A program made the translations under genes and the position numbers. Below the pieces are notes generated by a model, which had not been told where the DNA came from, did not search any database, and saw only the letters and a list, made by a program, of their open reading frames with translations. A DNA stretch of 32,821 bases from an uncultured Chlorobiaceae bacterium. Its GTDB lineage: Bacteria > Bacteroidota > Chlorobiia > Chlorobiales > Chlorobiaceae. Shown here piece by piece: positions 22,378-32,755 of the stretch (within the stretch, counting starts at the first letter, position 1; each line of letters opens with the position of its first letter). Location: NCBI GenBank assembly GCA_903871235.1, contig CAIQGA010000150.1:1-32821 (forward strand). Direction: 5' to 3'.

Positions 22378-24435
22378 CTACCTGCTCTTGATAAATGTCA
22401 CCTCAAAGGCTTTGCAGGGCCGGAACTGCTGAAGGCGATTGTTAAAGGTAAACGTATCGTTCATCTCATAGTGCTGAAAAATATCCAGTCCGCGATCAAG
22501 CAGGATTTTCCATCCATTGTCCGTCTCGATATGTCGGGCGTGAATGGTGGCGGTTCCATCAAACTCCCAGGTAAAAGCAATACCTGCTGCGATGCATGAC
22601 TCCTCTATCTTTTCAAAATACTCTTTCTGTTGGCCTCCCTTGAAATCCTCTTCCGTTGTGATTACATGAACGGCAACCTCCTCCTCCATCGGCTTGTGTT
22701 TGACAACCGTCTCAAGAAACTCCATGAGATTTCGCACCTGATAAAAGATGCGGATATAGGGATCAGTAAGCACAATGCGGCTTGCACCGCTCAGGTATGA
22801 GCCAAAAAGCGAGTCATAAGAGACTCCCCGCTGGTTCTCCTGAAAAGTAAGATGCTCTTCTTTAACGGCAGGGGCGGCAACTGAAGCAACAACAGCTCCA
22901 GAAACCTCCGTGAAATCCAGCTCCCGGCTTTCAACCTGAGGCAGTTTTCCATCAACCTCACCAATCGTTTTGTTGTAGAAATGAGGGTATACTTCCTCTT
23001 CAAGCGTTGTAACTGTTCTTGATTGACCAGAGACATCCGTATAAGCAAAATGAACCTTTAGATAGGTCGAATCGATTCGCATCAACTGATCCTTAACCCT
23101 TTTCCGCCCCTCAATAGAAAATTGAAGCAGCTCTTCAATCTCCTCTTTTGAAGCTCCTCCCTGAGGAAACAGGATCTTCATGAGACCAGAAAAAGTTTTA
23201 TTAACGCCATCCCGGTCACGGGTTGAAATATCGGGAGAAAGTGAAAAGTGCTCTTGATAACGATCTGAATAGTCGTGGTTGCGCATGGAGCGAAGAATTT
23301 CGGCAAGGTAATCGACAACAAATCCATAACCACTGGAAAACATCTCTCCTCGAATAATATCCACCTCCCACCCTGGTGCATAGAAATGGATACGGTCGAG
23401 AAAAGCAGAGTCATAAAACTTTTCGGGCAGCTCATCAAACAGGTCGGAGTGCTTGAGCATGTAGGGCACAGTATGCCGGGTGTTGCCAACGAAAACCATG
23501 GATGCTTCTGCTCCAAGGGTTTCAACACCCCGGGAGAAGGACTTGTTGGCCATGTAGTTTTTCATGATATCGACCAGCGCCTTATCCACCCGTTTCTGTT
23601 TACCGGCAAATTCATCAAAGGCCACTACATCCCAATAGCCGACCAACCCTATTTTACCCGAAGCGTTGCTCACAAAAAGCTTGGGCACCGTCACCTCACC
23701 CCCGGAAATAAGAATACCATGCGGGGAAAACTCCGAATAGATATGCGACTTCCCAGTCCCCTTGGGGCCAAGTTCAATCAGATTGTAGTTGCGTTCACAG
23801 TAGGGGATCAACCTGACGAGCTGAGTCAGTTTGCTGCGTTTTCCGAACATTTCAGGATTGAATCCGATGCTCTGGATCAGCAGATCAATCCACTCGTCAG
23901 TAGTGAATTGCTTGCGGGCTTCAACATAACCCTCAAAATCGAAGTGGGACAACTGAATCGGTTTCAGCGTCGAAAGGATCCACGGCACAGCGTTCTTCTC
24001 TTCCTTGAACTCGTACTCAATATCCGCAATGCACCATACACCCCCAACCAGTAATTTTGGATGAGTCTTGATCGTACCGGAATCAACCAGAACCTTCTTT
24101 ATTCCAAGATTTGAAAACTCTGCCTCGTATGCGTCACTCTTGTCATTCAGCGCAACACTGATCTTATCGATGACCTTATATCTTCCCTTCTCCTTGATAT
24201 TGGATCGAACCAACCCGGCTTCATTGCGATGCACATAGTGTTTACGGAGAATCTCCTTAACAGTCTCGATGCCGGTTTGAATCGAAGCATCATCGCTTGT
24301 CGCACAGTATTGACCCAACAGATATTCAAGAACGTATGTTGGAACAATGGCGTTGCCTTTGACGGTCTTGACAAGATCCTTGCGTACAACAAGCCCTGCG
24401 AAATGAGTGTTTATTTTCTGGTCGAAAAGAGTCAT
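22378..24435 (-). CDS. brxL: BREX Lon-like AAA+ protein BrxL
   Basis: BrxL is the AAA+ DNA-associated ATPase at the 3' end of type 1 BREX operons. The 685-residue length fits. Residues about 1-190 are the N-terminal domain. The Walker A motif GPKGTGKSH is near 225, Walker B VVAFDEFAG near 270, sensor-like FVGNTRHT near 315 and a conserved FLDRIHFY near 345. From about 550 comes the C-terminal domain with FGSYLSGASRIVLTDPYIR. The ATG at 24435 directly abuts inverted heptanucleotide repeats and has no Shine-Dalgarno sequence (GAAAACAG precedes it). The coding sequence itself looks intact, so expression rather than function is in doubt. Confidence 0.93.
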   Translation of the reverse strand: MTLFDQKINTHFAGLVVRKDLVKTVKGNAIVPTYVLEYLLGQYCATSDDASIQTGIETVKEILRKHYVHRNEAGLVRSNIKEKGRYKVIDKISVALNDKSDAYEAEFSNLGIKKVLVDSGTIKTHPKLLVGGVWCIADIEYEFKEEKNAVPWILSTLKPIQLSHFDFEGYVEARKQFTTDEWIDLLIQSIGFNPEMFGKRSKLTQLVRLIPYCERNYNLIELGPKGTGKSHIYSEFSPHGILISGGEVTVPKLFVSNASGKIGLVGYWDVVAFDEFAGKQKRVDKALVDIMKNYMANKSFSRGVETLGAEASMVFVGNTRHTVPYMLKHSDLFDELPEKFYDSAFLDRIHFYAPGWEVDIIRGEMFSSGYGFVVDYLAEILRSMRNHDYSDRYQEHFSLSPDISTRDRDGVNKTFSGLMKILFPQGGASKEEIEELLQFSIEGRKRVKDQLMRIDSTYLKVHFAYTDVSGQSRTVTTLEEEVYPHFYNKTIGEVDGKLPQVESRELDFTEVSGAVVASVAAPAVKEEHLTFQENQRGVSYDSLFGSYLSGASRIVLTDPYIRIFYQVRNLMEFLETVVKHKPMEEEVAVHVITTEEDFKGGQQKEYFEKIEESCIAAGIAFTWEFDGTATIHARHIETDNGWKILLDRGLDIFQHYEMNDTFTFNNRLQQFRPCKAFEVTFIKSR

Positions 24436-24518
24436 CTGTTTTCAGTAATCTGTTTTCAGTAATCAGTTGTCAGTAATCAGTTGTCAGTTTTCAGTAATCA
24501 GTGGTCAGTTTTCAGTTG
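24435..24518 (+). repeat. Twelve tandem heptanucleotides TCAGTNN (left arm)
   Basis: Twelve 7-base units read TCTGTTT or TCAGT followed by AA, TG, TT or GG (for example TCAGTAA, TCAGTTG, TCAGTTT). The first unit begins with the last base of the brxL start codon and the last three encode the C-terminus of the four-helix protein. On the right side of that gene the same heptads occur in inverted orientation. Confidence 0.9.
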
Positions 24519-24857
24519 TTTTTCTATTGAGTTGATGAGACCAACCAGCATGGCGGAGATTTCTCTGGTTTCGTTCACCCACGTATTGCCTTGAGATTTG
24601 TCGATATAGCCAATGTCTATGCCGATATAAATTTGCGTTCTCAGCTCACCGCACGATCCCTTGGAATATTGCAAAAACCTGATAAACTCTTTTTTTGAAC
24701 TTCTCTCCAAGCCCTCAGCAATGTTGCTCGGAATAGATAATCCCGAACGAGTTATCTGATCTCTGAAACCAAAATCCTTACAATCAGCAAACGATTTGTA
24801 CAGCTCAGCCGAAAGCCTCGCCGACCGCTTCCAAACTTCCAAATCCTCAAACCTCAT
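24498..24857 (-). CDS. Four-helix-bundle protein (S23/IVP family)
   Basis: The 119-residue protein has the hallmarks of the TIGR02436 family, relatives of the proteins encoded in 23S rRNA intervening sequences and of Avd. It opens MRFEDLEVWKRS, has the central SIPSNIAEGLERSSKKEFIRFL near residues 40-60 and then IGYIDK. The ATG at 24857 is preceded by AGGGAGGT at ideal spacing, so it is preferred over the GTG at 24872. The last codons (KQLKTDH) are written in the flanking heptad repeats. Function is unknown; members are basic helical bundles thought to bind nucleic acid. It interrupts the BREX operon between pglZ and brxL. Confidence 0.87.
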   Translation of the reverse strand: MRFEDLEVWKRSARLSAELYKSFADCKDFGFRDQITRSGLSIPSNIAEGLERSSKKEFIRFLQYSKGSCGELRTQIYIGIDIGYIDKSQGNTWVNETREISAMLVGLINSIEKQLKTDH

Positions 24858-24870
24858 AGAAACCTCCCTC

Positions 24871-24933
24871 ACTGATAACTGACAACTGACAACTGATTAC
24901 TGATTACTGATTACTGACAACTGACAACTGACA
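24871..24933 (+). repeat. Nine tandem heptanucleotides ACTGANN (right arm)
   Basis: Nine perfect-length 7-base units read in order ACTGATA, ACTGACA twice, ACTGATT three times and ACTGACA three times. A partial unit then meets the pglZ stop codon. This is the reverse-complement orientation of the left arm at 24435-24518, so the four-helix gene is bracketed by inverted arrays that could pair. Confidence 0.92.
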
Positions 24934-24935
24934 AC

Positions 24936-27470
24936 TTAGAAATCAAAATCGCTGGTAAATGAGCGCCGCACAGAATAGCGGATCGACTTGTACTCGCTGT
25001 AGTGGGAGGTACCAGGATATTTCTCATCCAGCCTCAAAATAACCTCCTGACCGTTCACCTCATCAGCTTTGCTGGTCAACAGAAAACGTACCTGCCGCTC
25101 ACGATCCCGGGAATTGTTAGAGCTAATATCAAAAACAAGGGTGTGGAAATCGGAAATCAGATCTCCAGCAAGAGTATACATCCCGGCAACAAGAGTCCTT
25201 GTCTGAACCTTTTCGGTAACCGGCTGCGACTGATAGAGTACAATGGCAAGCTGACCGGAGGTGATAACCGAGCTGGTGCCACGAATAATATCCACATCAA
25301 CAACCGAAATGTCGCTCTGCCGCTTTTTATTGATCCTGATAAGGGGAATCACCACCTCCTGCAACGATGCTCCTCCATGCACATAACGGCTTCCTGAACC
25401 CTTGAGACGCAAGCGATTGATTGATTTCGGAATCTGCACCTCCATATTTCCCGTCAGTCCAAGCTGGGCGGAATTGAACTTCCTGAGACCCGAAGCCTCT
25501 TTCAGCCCCTTCCCAAGTACAAATCGCCGGTCGCGGAAAAAAATCCGCTCACCTTCAGCCTCCTCTGCTGAAAAATCGCTTTCGTCAAGAGCACGGTTCT
25601 GGTAGATAAATCCATGATCAGAAGTGACCAGCAAGTTATTGGCATTGGCTCCGGTGAGTTTCTTGATCAGCTTGACAAGATCCTGCAAACTCTCTTCAAC
25701 AGCCTCGAATACCCTCTCTTCCGATTCGCGCTTGTCGCCAGTAAGGTCAATGCGATTATGGTAGAGATACACCACATCATGATCGCGTAGCAATGCCCGG
25801 CACTCATCACCCTTGAGCGCCATCACCTCATCCGCCTTGACTGCTATACCCCGCCATGAAGCTGACTGGCCGAGAATTTTCGAGCGATTGGCCGTGCCCT
25901 GCGAGCTGAGGCCATCCACCATCACCATCCCTGTATCGTTATCGGCAAGCTCCAGCGCTCTGTTCGGCAAAAGCGAGGCCATACAGAGCTGTGTATAGCT
26001 CGGCAGCATTGCGAGCACCGGCTCCAATTGTGCATCATACCGGTCTTCCTGCCGAATAAGCGTGAGCAATTCATCACCAATTTCGTAGCGTAACGCATCG
26101 GAAATAATGACACAGACTTTATTTTTCTTTGAGAGAAATGGCTGTACAAACCGCTCGAAAACACTCTTCTGGAGCAGAACAGGAGAAGCCTCCCATGCAT
26201 CGGTTTTGTCAACGAACGACTGCCACCGATCGTTCAGCTTCAGGAGATAGTTGTTGGAGTAAAGATTTTCCACTTTTTCGCTTAACTCCGCCATCAGCGA
26301 GGCTTGGGCAGAGATGCTGGCATGATGGGTGAATTTACGGTAGAACTGATCGAGCCGAAACCAATAGCGACTGTACTGCTGAACGCCATCAGCCATGGAA
26401 CTCATATCCAGTTTTGCCTCTTCGATTGCATGCATGAAAAGCGCAGCATACTCAACAGCCTCATAGAAATGGTGGAACTCTTTGAACCAGTGGCCTTGGC
26501 GTCGCAGGCGGATCCATTGCGTTACTTCATGACTGAACACCGTTCGAGCGGCAAGAGCCCGAACCAGATCACTGATAATTTTTCGGTCAATCAACCGGAA
26601 ATAATCGAGTTCAATCAGTTGACGAAAATCAAGCCCCTCCAGTTTCTCTGCAAGACGCAGAATCCCGGCACACTCATCCGAAAGCACTTCAAAGCAGCGC
26701 TCAAATTGACGGCAGTCTTTCCAGCGCTTCAAAAACACCAGCGCATCACCGGAAAGCTTATCATTTCCATCAGTGCCAACGGCAAAGCAGAACTTGAACA
26801 ACTCGATAACAAAATCCTTAAGGCCAGGCTCAGATGATTCATAGCCATAATTCCGTTTCATCAGCTCCCAGAAATATCCATCCAACCGGCAGCGCTCAAT
26901 CAACCGGAACTTATCACCATCCAGTAATTCCAGCCCCAACTGTTTATCATTCGAAGCGCTCCCAGCCAACTCGTCGAGCAGATGTTCCACCACCATATCG
27001 AGCTGAGGGGCGGAACCGGCACAAACCGCAACCATTTTCAGCCTGATAAGGCCGGGAGTATCATCCGACTTGAGCACTTTTTTAAGGCTCTCAATCCTCT
27101 TCGCAGACTTGTAGAATTCAGCATGATCCTTCACCACATCCCGAAAATCACTGCCAAGCTCCAACTCTGAGAGCCAGATACTCGCTTGATCAGCACGAAA
27201 CTCCCCATGAGCAAGCTCCACATCGAGGAGCCAGTTATCGAGCATTGCTGGTTGCGCCCCTTCACGATAAAGCAGAAATTTCTGTTCCGGCTGTTCACGC
27301 AGAATGCGATACTTTACGCCAAACTCGTTGTTGGCAAGCTCAATTTTTTCAACACCCTCAAGCTGTACGGCATCGAATGCGTCTCGCAGCTCACGCTTTG
27401 TATCATTCCAGAAGACAATACGATGACGCTCAAAGAGCCTGTTCAGAGCCTGGGCAATGCGACTATTCAT
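24936..27470 (-). CDS. pglZ: BREX type 1 alkaline-phosphatase-superfamily protein PglZ
   Basis: PglZ is a core BREX protein with a metal-dependent phosphatase/nuclease-like domain. From the ATG at 27470 (MNSRIAQALNRLFERH) it has 844 residues, typical of the type 1 (type A) form. A long helical N-terminal half is followed by the catalytic domain, with metal-ligand motifs IISDALRYE near residue 457 and TSDHGF near 617, PSYTQL between them and GGASLQEVVIP near 700. GGGAGA lies six bases before the ATG, and the start overlaps the DUF4276 stop as ATGA, which shows tight coupling. An open extension to 27506 is therefore not needed. Catalytic residues appear intact. Confidence 0.95.
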   Translation of the reverse strand: MNSRIAQALNRLFERHRIVFWNDTKRELRDAFDAVQLEGVEKIELANNEFGVKYRILREQPEQKFLLYREGAQPAMLDNWLLDVELAHGEFRADQASIWLSELELGSDFRDVVKDHAEFYKSAKRIESLKKVLKSDDTPGLIRLKMVAVCAGSAPQLDMVVEHLLDELAGSASNDKQLGLELLDGDKFRLIERCRLDGYFWELMKRNYGYESSEPGLKDFVIELFKFCFAVGTDGNDKLSGDALVFLKRWKDCRQFERCFEVLSDECAGILRLAEKLEGLDFRQLIELDYFRLIDRKIISDLVRALAARTVFSHEVTQWIRLRRQGHWFKEFHHFYEAVEYAALFMHAIEEAKLDMSSMADGVQQYSRYWFRLDQFYRKFTHHASISAQASLMAELSEKVENLYSNNYLLKLNDRWQSFVDKTDAWEASPVLLQKSVFERFVQPFLSKKNKVCVIISDALRYEIGDELLTLIRQEDRYDAQLEPVLAMLPSYTQLCMASLLPNRALELADNDTGMVMVDGLSSQGTANRSKILGQSASWRGIAVKADEVMALKGDECRALLRDHDVVYLYHNRIDLTGDKRESEERVFEAVEESLQDLVKLIKKLTGANANNLLVTSDHGFIYQNRALDESDFSAEEAEGERIFFRDRRFVLGKGLKEASGLRKFNSAQLGLTGNMEVQIPKSINRLRLKGSGSRYVHGGASLQEVVIPLIRINKKRQSDISVVDVDIIRGTSSVITSGQLAIVLYQSQPVTEKVQTRTLVAGMYTLAGDLISDFHTLVFDISSNNSRDRERQVRFLLTSKADEVNGQEVILRLDEKYPGTSHYSEYKSIRYSVRRSFTSDFDF

Positions 27471-28147
27471 GTTGTTTCTCCCAGATTCTCCAAACGAATC
27501 AGCCATTCATGAAAATGCTGGCATCTCCCCCGTAAAACAGGAAGCCCGATTTTCTCAGTCACCAACACACCTGAACTGACTTTATCATATTCTGGAATTT
27601 CTTTGATAATCCGTTTTGATGGCGCTGTCTCCCACCCGTCATTGATTAATTCCGGATTCTGTGCGCCAACCATTTGTAACAGATTCTTGATAGGATTATC
27701 ATGCTCCATGTATTCCCAGTCTAACTTTTGCGGGTCAGCAAGAATGAGTGCTTCAAACTCATGAAGCTGAATGTAGGGGATAAATCGATGGTCTCCGATA
27801 TTTTGGTAGAGAGCTTCCTCCAGTATTTCACAACGCTTGTAAGGATCTGCTTGCCTTAACGCCTCCTGATAGCCAGGAAAGTCATCGGGCAAAGCATACA
27901 GATCAAACATGGTGGTGAAACGACATTCTGGATTGTCATCTTCCTTCAGCCATGTCAGAATATCGTTTTTTGCTTTCTGATAGTGCAGTAATCCACCGCG
28001 ATACTCTTTTGCTGTCCGCTTGTCTTTGCTCGTCAGCACACAACGAGCATCAGCAAAAACAGTTGACTTAGCCAAGTGTGGAGCTAACACCTTTTTCACA
28101 AAAGCCTGTTCAGTCTGGCCTTCAGCAGTTACATGCAGGCGAATCAT
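27467..28147 (-). CDS. DUF4276 Toprim-like protein, partner of the adjacent ATPase
   Basis: The 226-residue protein matches DUF4276 by its opening IRLHVTAEGQTEQAF (Glu9, Glu13), FDLYALPDDFPG at 81-92 and LHEFEALILADP at 128-139. The EGxTE motif followed by a downstream acidic block is the layout of Toprim nuclease folds such as OLD, RloB and AriB. The ATG at 28147 overlaps the ATPase stop (ATGA) and its own stop overlaps the pglZ start, so it is locked between the two. ATPase/Toprim pairs act in OLD-like and PARIS-like defence, where the ATPase restrains the effector. The nuclease activity here is inferred. Confidence 0.85.
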   Translation of the reverse strand: MIRLHVTAEGQTEQAFVKKVLAPHLAKSTVFADARCVLTSKDKRTAKEYRGGLLHYQKAKNDILTWLKEDDNPECRFTTMFDLYALPDDFPGYQEALRQADPYKRCEILEEALYQNIGDHRFIPYIQLHEFEALILADPQKLDWEYMEHDNPIKNLLQMVGAQNPELINDGWETAPSKRIIKEIPEYDKVSSGVLVTEKIGLPVLRGRCQHFHEWLIRLENLGETT

Positions 28148-29298
28148 GGCTGACCTCCCAGCACATTTTTCTCCCACAACTCTGACAGACTGTAGTTTTT
28201 CAACCAATCCTGAAGCTGTTCAGCATCCAATTTTTTGAAAACCGAACAACGATTCGTTTCGTCACGATCAACTATAAGCAGATCATCAGGATTGAACTCA
28301 TCCACAAAGCGGGTTGATTGCGTAGCTACAAGAATCTGGGTTTTTTTTGCTACCGTATGAATCATCCCCGCCAACTCAGCTATAGCCGCGGGATGAAGAC
28401 CAAGCTCCGGTTCATCAAGTATAATAAACTTCGGTAACAGTGCCGGAGGTTGCAATAATAGCGTTGTCAAAGCCATGAAACGGAGTGACCCATCCGAAAT
28501 TTGATCCGGCCCAAAAAGATATTCACTGCCATAGACATCCGTCCAATTAAGACGAACATACATGTCATTTCCAGGTAAGGTCTCCAAAGAAAAATCCCCA
28601 AACTGCGGCATGACACGCTGAATATGTCGAACAATCCGATCGTAGTATCGCGTGTACTCGTCATGCTCCTTCAGCATTTTCAGAAAAGCCGCCAGATTTC
28701 CGGCATCGTGACGAAGATATTTTGCATCGTCCACATAACGACGATCTTTAATGGGTGCCGTATCGGAAGTGTCATGAAAATGATAGGCACGAATCCCTGA
28801 GAGAAGAGTATAAACAACTTTGCTTGTCTGCCGTTCATCCTTACTTAATCCAGCTTCAGCACCACCGCTTTCCAGATAGTACTCTTGAGGTTTGTTACTT
28901 CCATTTTCCCGGAATGTCACCTTTTCACCACTGATAAAGAGACGATCAGGCAAACCATACGACAGTTTGACCTCGTAAGTGTCGGCAGCACTCTCTGACA
29001 AAAAGTGAAGGGTAAAAGAGAGAGATTCAGTCACTTTTGGGCCATAAAACAAAAGCTGACCAACTCCTTGCTTTCCAACATAATTCTGCAGTGCACCGGT
29101 TGTAAGGAAGTTCAGCATCTTGAAAAATGAGACCACATTGCTTTTTCCTGAGCCGTTGGCCCCCAGCAGTATAGTCACATCTCCTAACGGTATATTTTGT
29201 CCAGATTGGCTATCAACAGCCTTGAACCCTTTCAGGTCAATTGACTTCAGCTTCATACGAGGGTCGCTCTTGTTTATGTTGTGTTCCATTGTCTTCAT
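28144..29298 (-). CDS. ABC-type AAA ATPase (AAA_21) of the DUF4276 pair
   Basis: From the ATG at 29298 (MKTMEHNINK) the protein has 384 residues. AGGAG lies ten bases upstream, and a TTG nine codons earlier is less likely. Walker A GANGSGKSN is near residue 45, the signature-like SDGSLRFMAL near 265, Walker B IILDEPELGLHP near 297 and a switch region TQSTRF near 327. This is the SMC/OLD-like ATPase type common in defence systems. It is followed by the DUF4276 gene with ATGA overlap, making a two-gene ATPase-effector unit directly upstream of pglZ. Motifs are intact. Confidence 0.9.
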   Translation of the reverse strand: MKTMEHNINKSDPRMKLKSIDLKGFKAVDSQSGQNIPLGDVTILLGANGSGKSNVVSFFKMLNFLTTGALQNYVGKQGVGQLLFYGPKVTESLSFTLHFLSESAADTYEVKLSYGLPDRLFISGEKVTFRENGSNKPQEYYLESGGAEAGLSKDERQTSKVVYTLLSGIRAYHFHDTSDTAPIKDRRYVDDAKYLRHDAGNLAAFLKMLKEHDEYTRYYDRIVRHIQRVMPQFGDFSLETLPGNDMYVRLNWTDVYGSEYLFGPDQISDGSLRFMALTTLLLQPPALLPKFIILDEPELGLHPAAIAELAGMIHTVAKKTQILVATQSTRFVDEFNPDDLLIVDRDETNRCSVFKKLDAEQLQDWLKNYSLSELWEKNVLGGQP

Positions 29299-29305
29299 CT
29301 GAACT

Positions 29306-29389
29306 TTACTCCTCTTTAGTATCAAGGCTGGGGATCTTTTTGAGAGCCGGGCCGAATTTCTGGTAGTTCAGTTGCACCAAGTCAGCTTC
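29306..29389 (-). pseudogene. Short remnant resembling the 3' end of pglX
   Basis: Between ptuB and the AAA_21 gene, a reading frame translates to EADLVQLNYQKF, then GPALKKIPSLDTKEE, and ends in TAA just before the AAA_21 ribosome-binding site. The pattern (V-x-L/V-N-Y-x-K-F-G then a short Lys-rich tail) is what I recall at the C-terminus of type 1 PglX methylases. It has no start of its own and overlaps the ptuB stop codon. It may be a scar of the ancestral order pglX, ATPase, DUF4276, pglZ before the other modules entered. The identification rests on 27 residues and is uncertain. Confidence 0.5.
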
Positions 29390-30005
29390 CAAAAAGGTAA
29401 CGTATAGTTGACCAGAGCTCTCCGTACATTCCGCCGCTATCCCGTTGAAGATATCCCGAAACAAAGCGATTCACGTCATCCTGATTCAAAGAGTCATCCA
29501 AAAAGGGTTCAATAGCACTCTTTCGCAAGCTTCTGAGTTTGGGAATATCAAGACCAAGCCTGACGACTGTTTCAGTTGCAGCTTTATCCGTCGGTTGTGC
29601 GGAACTGATATATCCGTCTCCGGTAAAAGCAAACCTGCTCTCACATTCCGGATCAAGCGGAGATAGCAGCAATTGCTCATCAAACCACTTATCCTTCAGA
29701 TTGCCACAATGACGCGGTTCTCCTCTTTTCAATCTCTGCTGACAAGAACAAAGCAGGTTAGTAAAATCCAACGGGTCTGTTGATGTATTCTCCTGAGGGC
29801 TGAAATGCTCAATATGAGAGTCGTTATCAGTTAACCTGCGCTCACAATAACAACAAATATACCCTTGCTCAGCCATAAGAGCCATCTTGACAATGTTCTT
29901 AACATCTCCACTCAGTTTACCGTAAGTCGGCGACCATTCATCATTCTTGAGGGCTTTCCACTCGGCCAAAGCCGCCGGTTCTTCCTGCTTGACGATGTAC
30001 TTCAT
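29382..30005 (-). CDS. ptuB: HNH endonuclease, Septu PtuB-like (TIGR02646 type)
   Basis: The 207-residue protein shows a cysteine/histidine HNH core: GYICCYCERRL at 48-58, SHIEHFSP at 63-70 with the likely catalytic His, DFTNLLCSC at 80-88 (Asn and Cys) and HCGNLKD at 99-105. The tail VVRLGLDIPKLRSLRK fits the TIGR02646 HNH family, found as PtuB in Septu and with retron Ec78. Its start overlaps the preceding ATPase gene as ATGA, as expected for a Septu pair. Role: DNA or RNA cleavage licensed by PtuA, by analogy. No frameshift is seen and the metal-site cysteines are present. Confidence 0.82.
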   Translation of the reverse strand: MKYIVKQEEPAALAEWKALKNDEWSPTYGKLSGDVKNIVKMALMAEQGYICCYCERRLTDNDSHIEHFSPQENTSTDPLDFTNLLCSCQQRLKRGEPRHCGNLKDKWFDEQLLLSPLDPECESRFAFTGDGYISSAQPTDKAATETVVRLGLDIPKLRSLRKSAIEPFLDDSLNQDDVNRFVSGYLQRDSGGMYGELWSTIRYLFGS

Positions 30006-31285
30006 TTGCCAATAATCTCCTTGCGCCTGATGAGGATTTCGGCTTTCAGCAGTTCAGGGTCTTCACCAATTTCAGACTTCATTTCGGCAATGGAACGCCG
30101 CGCCTCATCAAAATGAGCTTGATCAATGGCGGTATAAATATCATGAAGCCTTGTGCTGACAATGTCAGGCCGGGTCGTTTCAAGACCCATCAGGTCTTCG
30201 AGAATCCGGTCTATACTTTTTCCATAAGACTCGGAAGGTTGCTGAGCAACTATTCCCAAATCGGTCTGTATAAGAAGAAACAGGCTTTCCGGCTGAACAT
30301 GCGTGATAACATGCGGAGAATGAGTAGAGATAATAAACTGACAATTCGGAAACACCTCCAGAAGCTTCGGCACAATCAGGCGTTGCCACTTTGGATGAAG
30401 GTGCAGGTCAATTTCGTCCATGAGAATAATACCTTCGCCTTCAAGCGGATTAGGTCGTACAGGGTTGGCAATGGCCATCCGGCGGGCAAGATCTCCAACC
30501 ATAGCCATCAAACACTTTTCGCCATCTGAAAGCTGGTTGACCCTCAACGTCTTGCCATTTTTCTCCACCTCCATGCGAAGCGGATTACGACGTACGGTGA
30601 GATTAGTAAACTCAGGCATAAAGAGCATCAACGCGGCACGTACAGCTTCGAGTTGCCGATCTGGAAACTGGTATCCTTCAGGCTTTACAGGTTTTTCAGC
30701 ATATTTTCTGTTTTCATTTTCCAAATCTTCACGCTCCCTGAACCACTCAAAAAAAGCTCTAAAATTTGCGCCACCCGTTAACGAATCACTGTACGCTGAA
30801 AGAAGATCAAAACTATGCCGTTCTTTTATGCGAAGAGGAATGTCGAGTACTGCACGATTAACAGGGTAATAGGCAATCAACGGCAGATTTGTGAAGCCAT
30901 TGCTTTTTGTAATCTCAGATTGAACTTGCTTTGCAACCAAGGTTGTTGAAAGCAGAATTGAAACCGCATCTCTCTTGCTATACCCTTTACGTGTTTTTGC
31001 CAAATTCCAGGAAAAATAGCTTCCTCGAAAGTTACAAGTAATATGAAGGTCTGCAGATGCTTCACCGTTACGAATATCTGTCTCCTGAAGAGGACGTCCT
31101 GAAGAACTTTCATGCTTGACCCGATTGACAAACCAAGAGAGCAAAATAGCGGAAGCATCAAGGATGCTCGATTTTCCCGAGCCATTCGTCCCGAAAAACA
31201 CATTGAGTCGATCATGGAGTTCCAGCGGCAGCAACTTAGCTCCACGAAAACAGGTCATTGTTAATTGATGGACACGCATTCCCAT
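30002..31285 (-). CDS. ptuA: ATPase, Septu PtuA-like
   Basis: This 427-residue ABC/OLD-type ATPase has Walker A GTNGSGKSS at 32-40, signature LSDGEKCLMA near 256, Walker B GIILMDEIDLHLHP near 288 and the switch His in STHSPHV near 320. The following gene is a PtuB-like HNH nuclease with a 4-base overlap, the arrangement of Septu. Here it lies inside a BREX operon. The start at 31285 overlaps the upstream stop as TAATG; an ATG two codons later is also possible. The protein looks complete and functional. Confidence 0.87.
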   Translation of the reverse strand: MGMRVHQLTMTCFRGAKLLPLELHDRLNVFFGTNGSGKSSILDASAILLSWFVNRVKHESSSGRPLQETDIRNGEASADLHITCNFRGSYFSWNLAKTRKGYSKRDAVSILLSTTLVAKQVQSEITKSNGFTNLPLIAYYPVNRAVLDIPLRIKERHSFDLLSAYSDSLTGGANFRAFFEWFREREDLENENRKYAEKPVKPEGYQFPDRQLEAVRAALMLFMPEFTNLTVRRNPLRMEVEKNGKTLRVNQLSDGEKCLMAMVGDLARRMAIANPVRPNPLEGEGIILMDEIDLHLHPKWQRLIVPKLLEVFPNCQFIISTHSPHVITHVQPESLFLLIQTDLGIVAQQPSESYGKSIDRILEDLMGLETTRPDIVSTRLHDIYTAIDQAHFDEARRSIAEMKSEIGEDPELLKAEILIRRKEIIGK

Positions 31286-32229
31286 TACCGTTTGGTTATT
31301 TTTGGCCCAACATACACGACATATAGTGGCTCATTTGGATAGATTGGCCAAGAGAAATGAATCCGCAGTTGAGGTGTCTTGACCTTACCATGCCATGGAC
31401 AAAATAATGTTTGGCCTTGTACGTCAGGATGTTTAAATGTCAGTTCAGATTTAAAATCATTTTTTTCATCTGAAGACGAATCTGTAAACCATGCTTTTTT
31501 CCCTGTAAAAAAATTCCGATATAAACGGTCTCCGTATTCTGTACGCTCTCCGTCTTCGTCAAAACAATTCAGATATTTTGCAAGAATTTCAAGTTTACAT
31601 ATTAATTGATTAGCAGCTCCAGGAACAAATGGATGCCCCCGAAAAGGCTCAAAAGCATCAACCGAGAAGCTGATATGAGGGAAACGGATGCGACACACTA
31701 CCGCCAACTGTTCCCATGAATGAATTGGTTCAGGAGCCAGACGCAATGCAATTTCGAGGCTTGCGGTATTGACAATGCTTGTCTCTCTGTTATCACCATC
31801 AACCCTATGCCAGCAAACCAGAAGAGGCGAGCGCTCCCAATCGGATGGCATTATGCTCAACAGGTGGCAATCACCTCCATGAAGTACCCGAAAAGCGGCT
31901 TCTCCAATCGCTGAATCGGTTACAATATGGTCTAAACACTCCATAAAATCGTCAGAATTATGCAATCGAGCATCGTCCCAGTATGGGCCATTCTTCGTCA
32001 ACCAGAGTATTACAGCTTTTTTCTTATCCGCGCTCAGTTGTTGAACAGCCTGTGGCATAGCCAAGTCCCTGGTGACTTGAGCATAAGCCAGATTGCGATG
32101 ACAATAGAGTTCTCGCCTTAACAACCTACTCATGTTACGTGCTGCCATCAAGCGATCAATCGCATCAGAAAATGAGGCGATATCGGGAAACTGGCCATGA
32201 AAGGAGAGATCGTTTACAAGTACTTCCAT
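31285..32229 (-). CDS. Unknown protein paired with the DUF3696 ATPase
   Basis: From the ATG at 32229 (MEVLVNDLSFHGQF) the protein has 314 residues. A TTG seven codons upstream would overlap the previous gene, while the ATG starts one base after that gene's stop and follows a G-rich stretch. There are no membrane segments. Distinct C-terminal sequences are ELTFKHPD, FCPWHGKVK and LRIHFSWPI, then LYVVYVGPKITKR. A CPWHGK plus HFSW arrangement could be a small metal site. I do not recognise a named domain. Tight coupling on both sides makes it the likely effector or specificity partner of the upstream ATPase. Confidence 0.75.
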   Translation of the reverse strand: MEVLVNDLSFHGQFPDIASFSDAIDRLMAARNMSRLLRRELYCHRNLAYAQVTRDLAMPQAVQQLSADKKKAVILWLTKNGPYWDDARLHNSDDFMECLDHIVTDSAIGEAAFRVLHGGDCHLLSIMPSDWERSPLLVCWHRVDGDNRETSIVNTASLEIALRLAPEPIHSWEQLAVVCRIRFPHISFSVDAFEPFRGHPFVPGAANQLICKLEILAKYLNCFDEDGERTEYGDRLYRNFFTGKKAWFTDSSSDEKNDFKSELTFKHPDVQGQTLFCPWHGKVKTPQLRIHFSWPIYPNEPLYVVYVGPKITKR

Positions 32230-32230
32230 C

Positions 32231-32755
32231 TCAATCCCCCCAACCGGCAAAATGATTCATATCCTTATCAAACTGGTCAAAAAAGCCCTCTGGCCAAACA
32301 TCAATATTACCAAAAGGATCGATTTGTGGAGTAATAACCTGCGTCTGCTCAGCACTCCGTGGTTTAAAAAAGTGTAACATCACCTGTTCTGGAATAAGAC
32401 GATGCAGCCTGACGGCCCGGCGGATACCATTGAGGATATGATCACTATGCGTTTCAATCACCACCTGTACCCCGGCACGGGCCACATCTGCCAAAAATTG
32501 ACCCATGAGCGCCTGTCCTGCCGGATGAAGATGCACCTCTGGATTTTCGATGAGCAGCATATCCCCCTTTGCCGCCGATAGCGCAGCAATAACGATCGGC
32601 AAAACCTGAGTCAAGCCAAACCCAACATGAACCGGACGATGAAAGTCCGTATCATCTGAAGTCCGGAGGCCAAGGGTAACCGCATTAACCCTAGCAGCCT
32701 GTCGGAATTGAGATTTTCGCCAAAAAAAGCTATGATGTCGCCCATAAGCTGCAAG
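32231..32755 (-). CDS. DUF3696-type AAA ATPase, 3' part only; frame closed near the window edge
   Basis: The C-terminal ATPase half is clear: VGFGLTQVLPIVIAAL, Walker B LLIENPEVHLHP, the switch ETHSDHILNGIRRA, and the DUF3696 tail with IDVWPEGFFDQFDKD. The Walker A half lies beyond the window. Reading upstream, this frame meets a TGA at 32756-32758, while another minus frame stays open to the edge (it contains LMGDIIAFFGENLNSDRLLG). So either the gene is frameshifted around 32690-32755 or the N-terminal part belongs to the other frame through a sequencing error. The TTG at 32614 is not a credible start because homologous sequence continues upstream of it. It is coupled to the 314-residue gene. 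Confidence 0.72.
   Translation of the reverse strand, partial: LAAYGRHHSFFWRKSQFRQAARVNAVTLGLRTSDDTDFHRPVHVGFGLTQVLPIVIAALSAAKGDMLLIENPEVHLHPAGQALMGQFLADVARAGVQVVIETHSDHILNGIRRAVRLHRLIPEQVMLHFFKPRSAEQTQVITPQIDPFGNIDVWPEGFFDQFDKDMNHFAGWGD

Follow-up and report, generated by a model that had tools for sequence, protein, structure and literature searches.

An S23 gene within inverted heptad arrays at a BREX pglZ–brxL junction, a probable small mobile element

The 500-nt insert that separates pglZ from brxL in the BREX locus studied here is probably a small mobile element that combines an S23 gene with its heptad arms and resembles the 23S rRNA intervening sequence (IVS) in plan, with S23 playing an active part. 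Movement of gene and arms as one unit is well supported by comparisons among genomes and loci, from which all the evidence on mobility comes. On the minus strand of the window (the whole 32,821-nt stretch of DNA that was analysed), the order is pglZ, insert, brxL, and the spacer between the two host genes measures exactly 500 nt. The features of the region are as follows.

24936..27506, minus strand: pglZ (BREX-1 phosphatase, type A), the host gene upstream of the insert.
24436..24935, minus strand: the whole inserted element, 500 nt, delimited by the spacer length and by comparison with nine empty orthologous junctions (5–17 nt).
24871..24935, minus strand: 5' arm, TCAGTNN on the sense strand, equal to nine ACTGANN on the plus strand; abuts the pglZ stop codon.
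24863..24870, minus strand: ribosome-binding site GAGGGAGG, immediately 3' of the 5' heptad arm, from reading of the sequence.
24498..24857, minus strand: S23 (four-helix-bundle) gene, PF05635 and TIGR02436, 119 aa from ATG 24857, from profile matches and purifying selection.
24498..24518, minus strand: the final six S23 codons plus the stop, made of repeat sequence.
24435..24518, minus strand: 3' arm, twelve TC[A/T]GTNN units on the plus strand; extends to the brxL start codon.
22378..24435, minus strand: brxL (BREX Lon-like), the host gene downstream of the insert.

The left array occupies 24435 to 24518 with 12 uninterrupted 7-nt units, and its first position, 24435, is where the brxL ATG ends. 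The right array, nine ACTGANN units starting at 24871, follows directly after the pglZ stop codon (TAA). Inverted arrays of twelve and nine units meeting these two codons had been reported in the preliminary description, and the count is confirmed, with ten of the twelve left-hand units reading TCAGTNN and two reading TCTGTNN. Triple-heptad matches numbered 14 in the window, compared to none in 100 dinucleotide shuffles. Pure TAACTGA arrays are absent from the window, while the ACTGANN core does match and the array reaches the brxL ATG. The S23 gene runs from ATG 24857 to a TGA ending at 24498. Use of the listed start, GTG 24872, is improbable; GGGAGG lies 5–6 nt upstream of ATG 24857, from which a protein of 119 aa would result. 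The C-terminus of this protein, QLKTDH* (six codons and the stop), is encoded by repeat sequence, so that the ribosome-binding site of its own and the repeat-made last codons claimed earlier are both found. In a predicted RNA fold of the transcript (−176.6 kcal/mol; z = −8.2 relative to shuffled sequences), the two arms pair with each other and enclose the S23 gene as the loop, which supports, as a prediction, the earlier proposal that the arrays could form a hairpin or cruciform. Mirror symmetry between the two arms in heptad order or variable bases was looked for and not found, which makes simple fold-back copying of an entire arm unlikely. The insert contains no transposase, no target-site duplication is apparent by eye at the junction, and the ends of the element are not sharply defined. 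Its only gene is the PF05635 gene, and no DNA cutting or joining enzyme is encoded in it. Beside the BREX genes, at 27467–32614 of the window, lies a defence island with HEC-01A/B, Septu PtuA/PtuB and NsnB/NsnC-like genes; the match of the NsnB-like ORF at the window end is confined to the C-terminal part of its model.

The protein of the insert matched PF05635 at 121 bits (cut-off 33.8) and TIGR02436 at 119.8 bits (cut-off 24), in agreement with its first description as a four-helix-bundle protein. In the Pfam scan PF05635 was the only match and the bAvd model was unmatched. The solved structures closest to it by sequence are 2GSC (XCC0516) and 2RLD, and the Xanthomonas S23 protein has been described as a toroidal homopentamer of four-helix bundles (PMC4990558). 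When the window copy was compared with those of two other genomes, G023 and G030, dN/dS was 0.07–0.10, indicating purifying selection. These two and the window's genome (G000) were the only ones among 91 genomes searched to carry an S23 protein at least 90% identical to the window's. More broadly, an S23 gene above the Pfam cut-off was present in 94 of 150 genomes searched, and the window's own genome has one strong PF05635 gene. No relative of the window's S23 protein was found among 50,697 phage records.

Twelve orthologous pglZ–brxL junctions could be read within the genus. Three are filled, with 500 nt in G000, 449 nt in G023 and 445 nt in G030, and nine (G008, G015, G017, G025, G049, G050, G051, G056 and G059) are empty, with 5–17 nt between the genes. 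The G025 junction is empty although its brxL is 98% identical to the window's. Copy number of the arrays, suggested earlier as a point to compare, differs among the filled alleles G000, G023 and G030: exact TCAGT counts in the 5' arm are 9, 7 and 6, and exact ACTGA counts in the 3' arm are 10, 6 and 3, respectively. We considered whether the S23 gene might serve this BREX system as an accessory defence gene. It does lie between pglZ and brxL in three species, and another S23 element is found inside the pglX gene of G063. However, the gene is not conserved in orthologous loci as a BREX core gene would be, being absent from 9 of the 12 junctions, S23 has no PADLOC model, and S23 elements occur at many unrelated junctions elsewhere. 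The preliminary description had named presence at this junction in all related BREX loci as evidence against a cassette, and the nine loci without the gene show the opposite. An accessory role in BREX is thus largely refuted and retains very little credibility.

To assess how general this architecture is, we assembled S23 loci, 80 of them from named genomes spanning many phyla and the rest from the window's phylum. In each of the 133 usable loci, the highest-scoring ungapped inverted match between the two 200-nt flanks of the gene was determined. A score of at least 12 was reached by 76.7% of the 133 S23 loci, compared to 6.7% of 135 control ORFs of similar size from the same loci and 3.4% when arms were swapped between loci. 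A first pass against random windows had given 76.9% versus 1.5%. Tandem repeats of period 7 were present in 68% of S23 flanks and 7% of control windows, and those of period 8 in 16% and 1%, respectively. The arm signature was found in all taxonomic groups sampled (Pseudomonadota, Desulfobacterota and Campylobacterota, the PVC group, Bacteroidota, Bacillota and others) and, read by eye, on four plasmids. The heptad is usually private to each element, and S23 copies inside one complete genome differ in motif. A search for S23 genes with ACTGA heptads on both sides had been proposed; matched inverted flanks proved to be common, with a heptad that usually differs between elements. A layout shared across many phyla suggests that small mobile elements of this class are widespread and have largely escaped recognition. 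Two conserved 23S motifs, used for a crude scan, were absent from the sampled S23 loci. In two Pseudomonas genomes (L095 and L102) an S23 element, recognised from its flanks, apparently lies at the cysD–cysN junction.

Pairs of S23 genes that were at least 60% identical but lay in dissimilar flanking DNA shared an arm motif in 25% of cases, compared to 1–6% in other classes of pairs; L113/L122 and L094/L103 are examples of motif-sharing pairs at unrelated loci. Because related S23 genes at unrelated loci share their heptad above background, gene and arms appear to travel together. Insertion is also strongly oriented. Both neighbours were co-directional with S23 in 90 of 124 loci and both were opposite in 12 (p 6e-16); the neighbours were called with a simple ORF caller, and individual ones may be wrong, but an asymmetry of 90 versus 12 is too large to hinge on such errors. 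Similarly, the 5' arm was the G-richer one in 87 of the 98 elements showing a difference (p 8e-16). The sense bias would fit an RNA intermediate, and would equally fit selection against antisense insertions or for S23 expression. Together with the nine empty BREX loci and the sharing of heptads at unrelated loci, the sense-oriented, intercistronic bias supports the original view of a self-contained cassette at gene junctions.

Heptad arrays also occur without the gene. The window's genome has about 17 ACTGA heptad sites, of which about 16 lie outside the window and are gene-free. Most of these are convergent palindromes in which a TCAGT arm, a short centre without the gene and an ACTGA arm follow one another, and a few are one-sided or at contig ends. 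Alignment with relatives showed that several gene-free arrays are polymorphic between species, with length changes largely in 7-nt steps. Arrays without the gene at many loci had been expected if the repeats were simple microsatellites, and such arrays do exist; however, as they are mostly convergent palindromes rather than one-sided and several are polymorphic between species, they are not plain microsatellites. The ACTGA palindrome pattern was found in 7 of 150 related genomes, six of them within the window's genus. Two genomes, G025 and G033, whose assemblies are 80–87% complete, carry ACTGA palindromes without a relative of the window's S23 gene. Arrays of another heptad, CAGCACT, were present in 21 of the 150 genomes, many without a matching S23 gene, and G015 has abundant gene-free CAGCACT arrays and no detectable S23 gene. 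Strict dependence of the arrays on a resident S23 is therefore not supported. CAGCACT heptad matches range from dozens to more than 100 per genome in G005, G015, G032 and G052, one of which is without detectable S23. We probably see non-autonomous or decayed relatives of the element in the gene-free heptad palindromes. For the motif CGAGANG, carried by the S23 element of G066 and occurring once in G079 and twice in G086, we looked for a burst of gene-free copies and saw none. Genome G006 contains two S23 copies with an internal TGA (on C236 and C127), one of them near long GGTTCA heptad arrays; both are probably decaying elements.

The element inside pglX of G063 (L050 381-3317; PADLOC PglX, E 7e-287) has a different heptad, AGTGGCT/AGCCACT. 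It spans 142 codons through which the pglX frame stays open, with S23 in another frame. Such openness was matched in 24 of 5000 synonymous shuffles; across all elements an open alternative frame was seen in 4 of 127, versus about 1 expected, so that the overall signal is weak and G063 alone is unusual. At the same place in pglX there is no insert in G000, G023, G025 and G059, and G030 and G050 have gene-free, in-frame TCAGT heptads. At a second pglX site motifs alternate likewise. Since these places alternate between an S23 element and gene-free arrays, both appear to use the same spots. Upstream of its S23 element, the G063 pglX gene has a second, gene-free heptad palindrome, again in frame. 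A heptad array in the window's genome (G000:C39; L035 993-1032) apparently falls within the coding sequence for the pglX C-terminus; most relatives have arrays at this site, and G059 has none.

These sites bear on the main rival explanation, which makes the heptad palindromes primary. Replication slippage and template switching would create and lengthen them at sites that tolerate them, and S23 genes would be passengers that survive best inside them, the stem insulating them in operon mRNA. Variation in array length between species, largely in multiples of 7 nt, would be expected from such a process, as would the various motifs in arrays at the same pglX sites, the persistence of arrays without S23 and arms that are not mirrored heptad by heptad. 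Passengers would not, however, be expected to have arms across many phyla far above controls, to share a motif above background when related genes lie at unrelated loci, or to have arms whose polarity follows the orientation of the S23 gene, and we regard this explanation as rather unlikely. A different possibility is that the arrays are post-transcriptional regulatory sites and that S23 is an RNA-binding regulator, autoregulated via its own arms and controlling host genes that have gene-free arrays. In its favour, the arrays lie directly against start and stop codons, selection on S23 is purifying, and a translational regulator binding TAACTGA repeats just before starts has been proposed (MacGregor 2015, PMC4679880). 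Yet the arrays are sporadic, polymorphic between related species, present in frame inside coding genes and found without S23, which makes regulation an improbable primary function, although a regulatory side effect is still compatible with the data. A mobile element with an active S23 is the explanation that we prefer.

The closest known parallel in plan is the 23S rRNA IVS, for example that of Coxiella burnetii, in which an S23-family ORF lies in the loop of a stem with complementary ends; it is sporadic, and mobility has been proposed (PMC4990558). The window element likewise has an S23-type ORF between complementary ends and a predicted stem. In contrast, its host RNA is a protein operon (pglZ–brxL) instead of 23S rRNA, and its stem consists of tandem heptads, with gene-free palindromes of the same heptad scattered in the genome. 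The TAACTGA heptamers of Beggiatoaceae, Cyanobacteria and Bacteroidetes are intergenic, near start codons, sporadic and variable in 7-nt copy-number steps, and their author raised the possibility that the mobile element is a protein binding the repeats (MacGregor 2015, PMC4679880). The window's heptads share with them the ACTGA core, proximity to start codons, 7-nt steps and sporadic distribution; however, the TAACTGA repeats are mostly direct, with a single inverted one, and the main text of that study is without S23 (PMC4679880). GGGAATC heptads of Xanthomonas and Nostoc lie between aligned ORFs near starts or stops, with 70–75 convergent inverted pairs per genome in Xanthomonas (Rehm 2015, PMC4692102). 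Heptad arrays between aligned ORFs and convergent inverted pairs are thus common to both cases, whereas the GGGAATC repeats were read as G-quadruplex sequences, in a main text likewise without S23 (PMC4692102).

In REP/REPIN systems one gene-bearing form, encoding the Y1 tyrosine transposase RAYT, accompanies many gene-free palindromes. The window element type too combines a gene-bearing form with many gene-free palindromes, but it lacks a tyrosine transposase, and its arms are tandem heptads with a motif that is usually private. Another PF05635-like gene of the window's genome, on contig C142, is bAvd (PF22296) beside a reverse transcriptase (PF00078), a diversity-generating retroelement. This Avd gene is without arms (inverted score 7.5). 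At G000:C142:60500-67500 (L251) a pentapeptide-repeat/Lcl_C target gene, bAvd and the reverse transcriptase are adjacent, and an AAA ATPase gene comes next. Avd (PF22296) weakly matches the S23 family; unlike the retroelement, the window element lacks both a reverse transcriptase and a TR/VR pair. Retrohoming of such retroelements depends on a hairpin or cruciform in the target DNA (PMC3240598), and by analogy a role for S23 with a hairpin is plausible. In the open-access literature we found no paper linking S23 to heptad arrays, and because the search was limited to that literature the novelty of the link is provisional.

We propose that the element is a long imperfect hairpin in which inverted arrays of a single heptad form the arms and an S23 gene occupies the loop. 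Such an element would enter transcribed spacers in the sense direction, immediately behind a stop codon and immediately ahead of a start codon, and now and then coding sequence, where it keeps the frame. There it would act like an S23-bearing 23S rRNA IVS, but in mRNAs, so that the host operon transcribes the element and the neighbouring genes remain readable. The S23 protein, of which a solved homologue is pentameric and which is related to Avd, an accessory protein of retroelements, would bind the heptad stem and promote copying, and the intermediate would be RNA or single-stranded DNA. Comparison establishes the architecture and how general it is, the empty sites, the movement as a unit, the bias in orientation and the shared insertion spots, whereas the driving role of S23 in mobility, its chemistry, its binding to the heptad stem and the nature of the intermediate are inferred. 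Against S23 as the sole driver are the G015 arrays in a genome without detectable S23, the lack of a cutting or joining enzyme and of a visible target-site duplication. The unrelated motifs of many S23 elements within one genome, the unmirrored heptad order of the arms and the ACTGA palindromes of G025 and G033 also speak against the proposed model. More tentatively, it is possible that S23 is the mobility factor of a very widespread and so far unrecognised class of mini-elements. Each pentamer would act on a stem built from the heptad of its element, carry the unit to new places in transcribed DNA and give rise to gene-free heptad palindromes; the intermediate might be RNA or single-stranded, with a polymerase of the host or of a retroelement assisting.

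The finding that most S23 genes lie inside inverted heptad arms turns two unsolved puzzles, the spread of S23 and the heptad arrays, into one testable object. Inverted heptad arms offer a simple signature for annotating S23 elements, which can also sit in frame inside a defence gene (pglX), and S23 becomes a direct candidate for the repeat-binding protein sought by others. If S23 is indeed the mobility factor, S23 elements would have left as their footprints the heptad repeats that are scattered through the window's genus and through Cyanobacteria, Xanthomonas and Beggiatoaceae.
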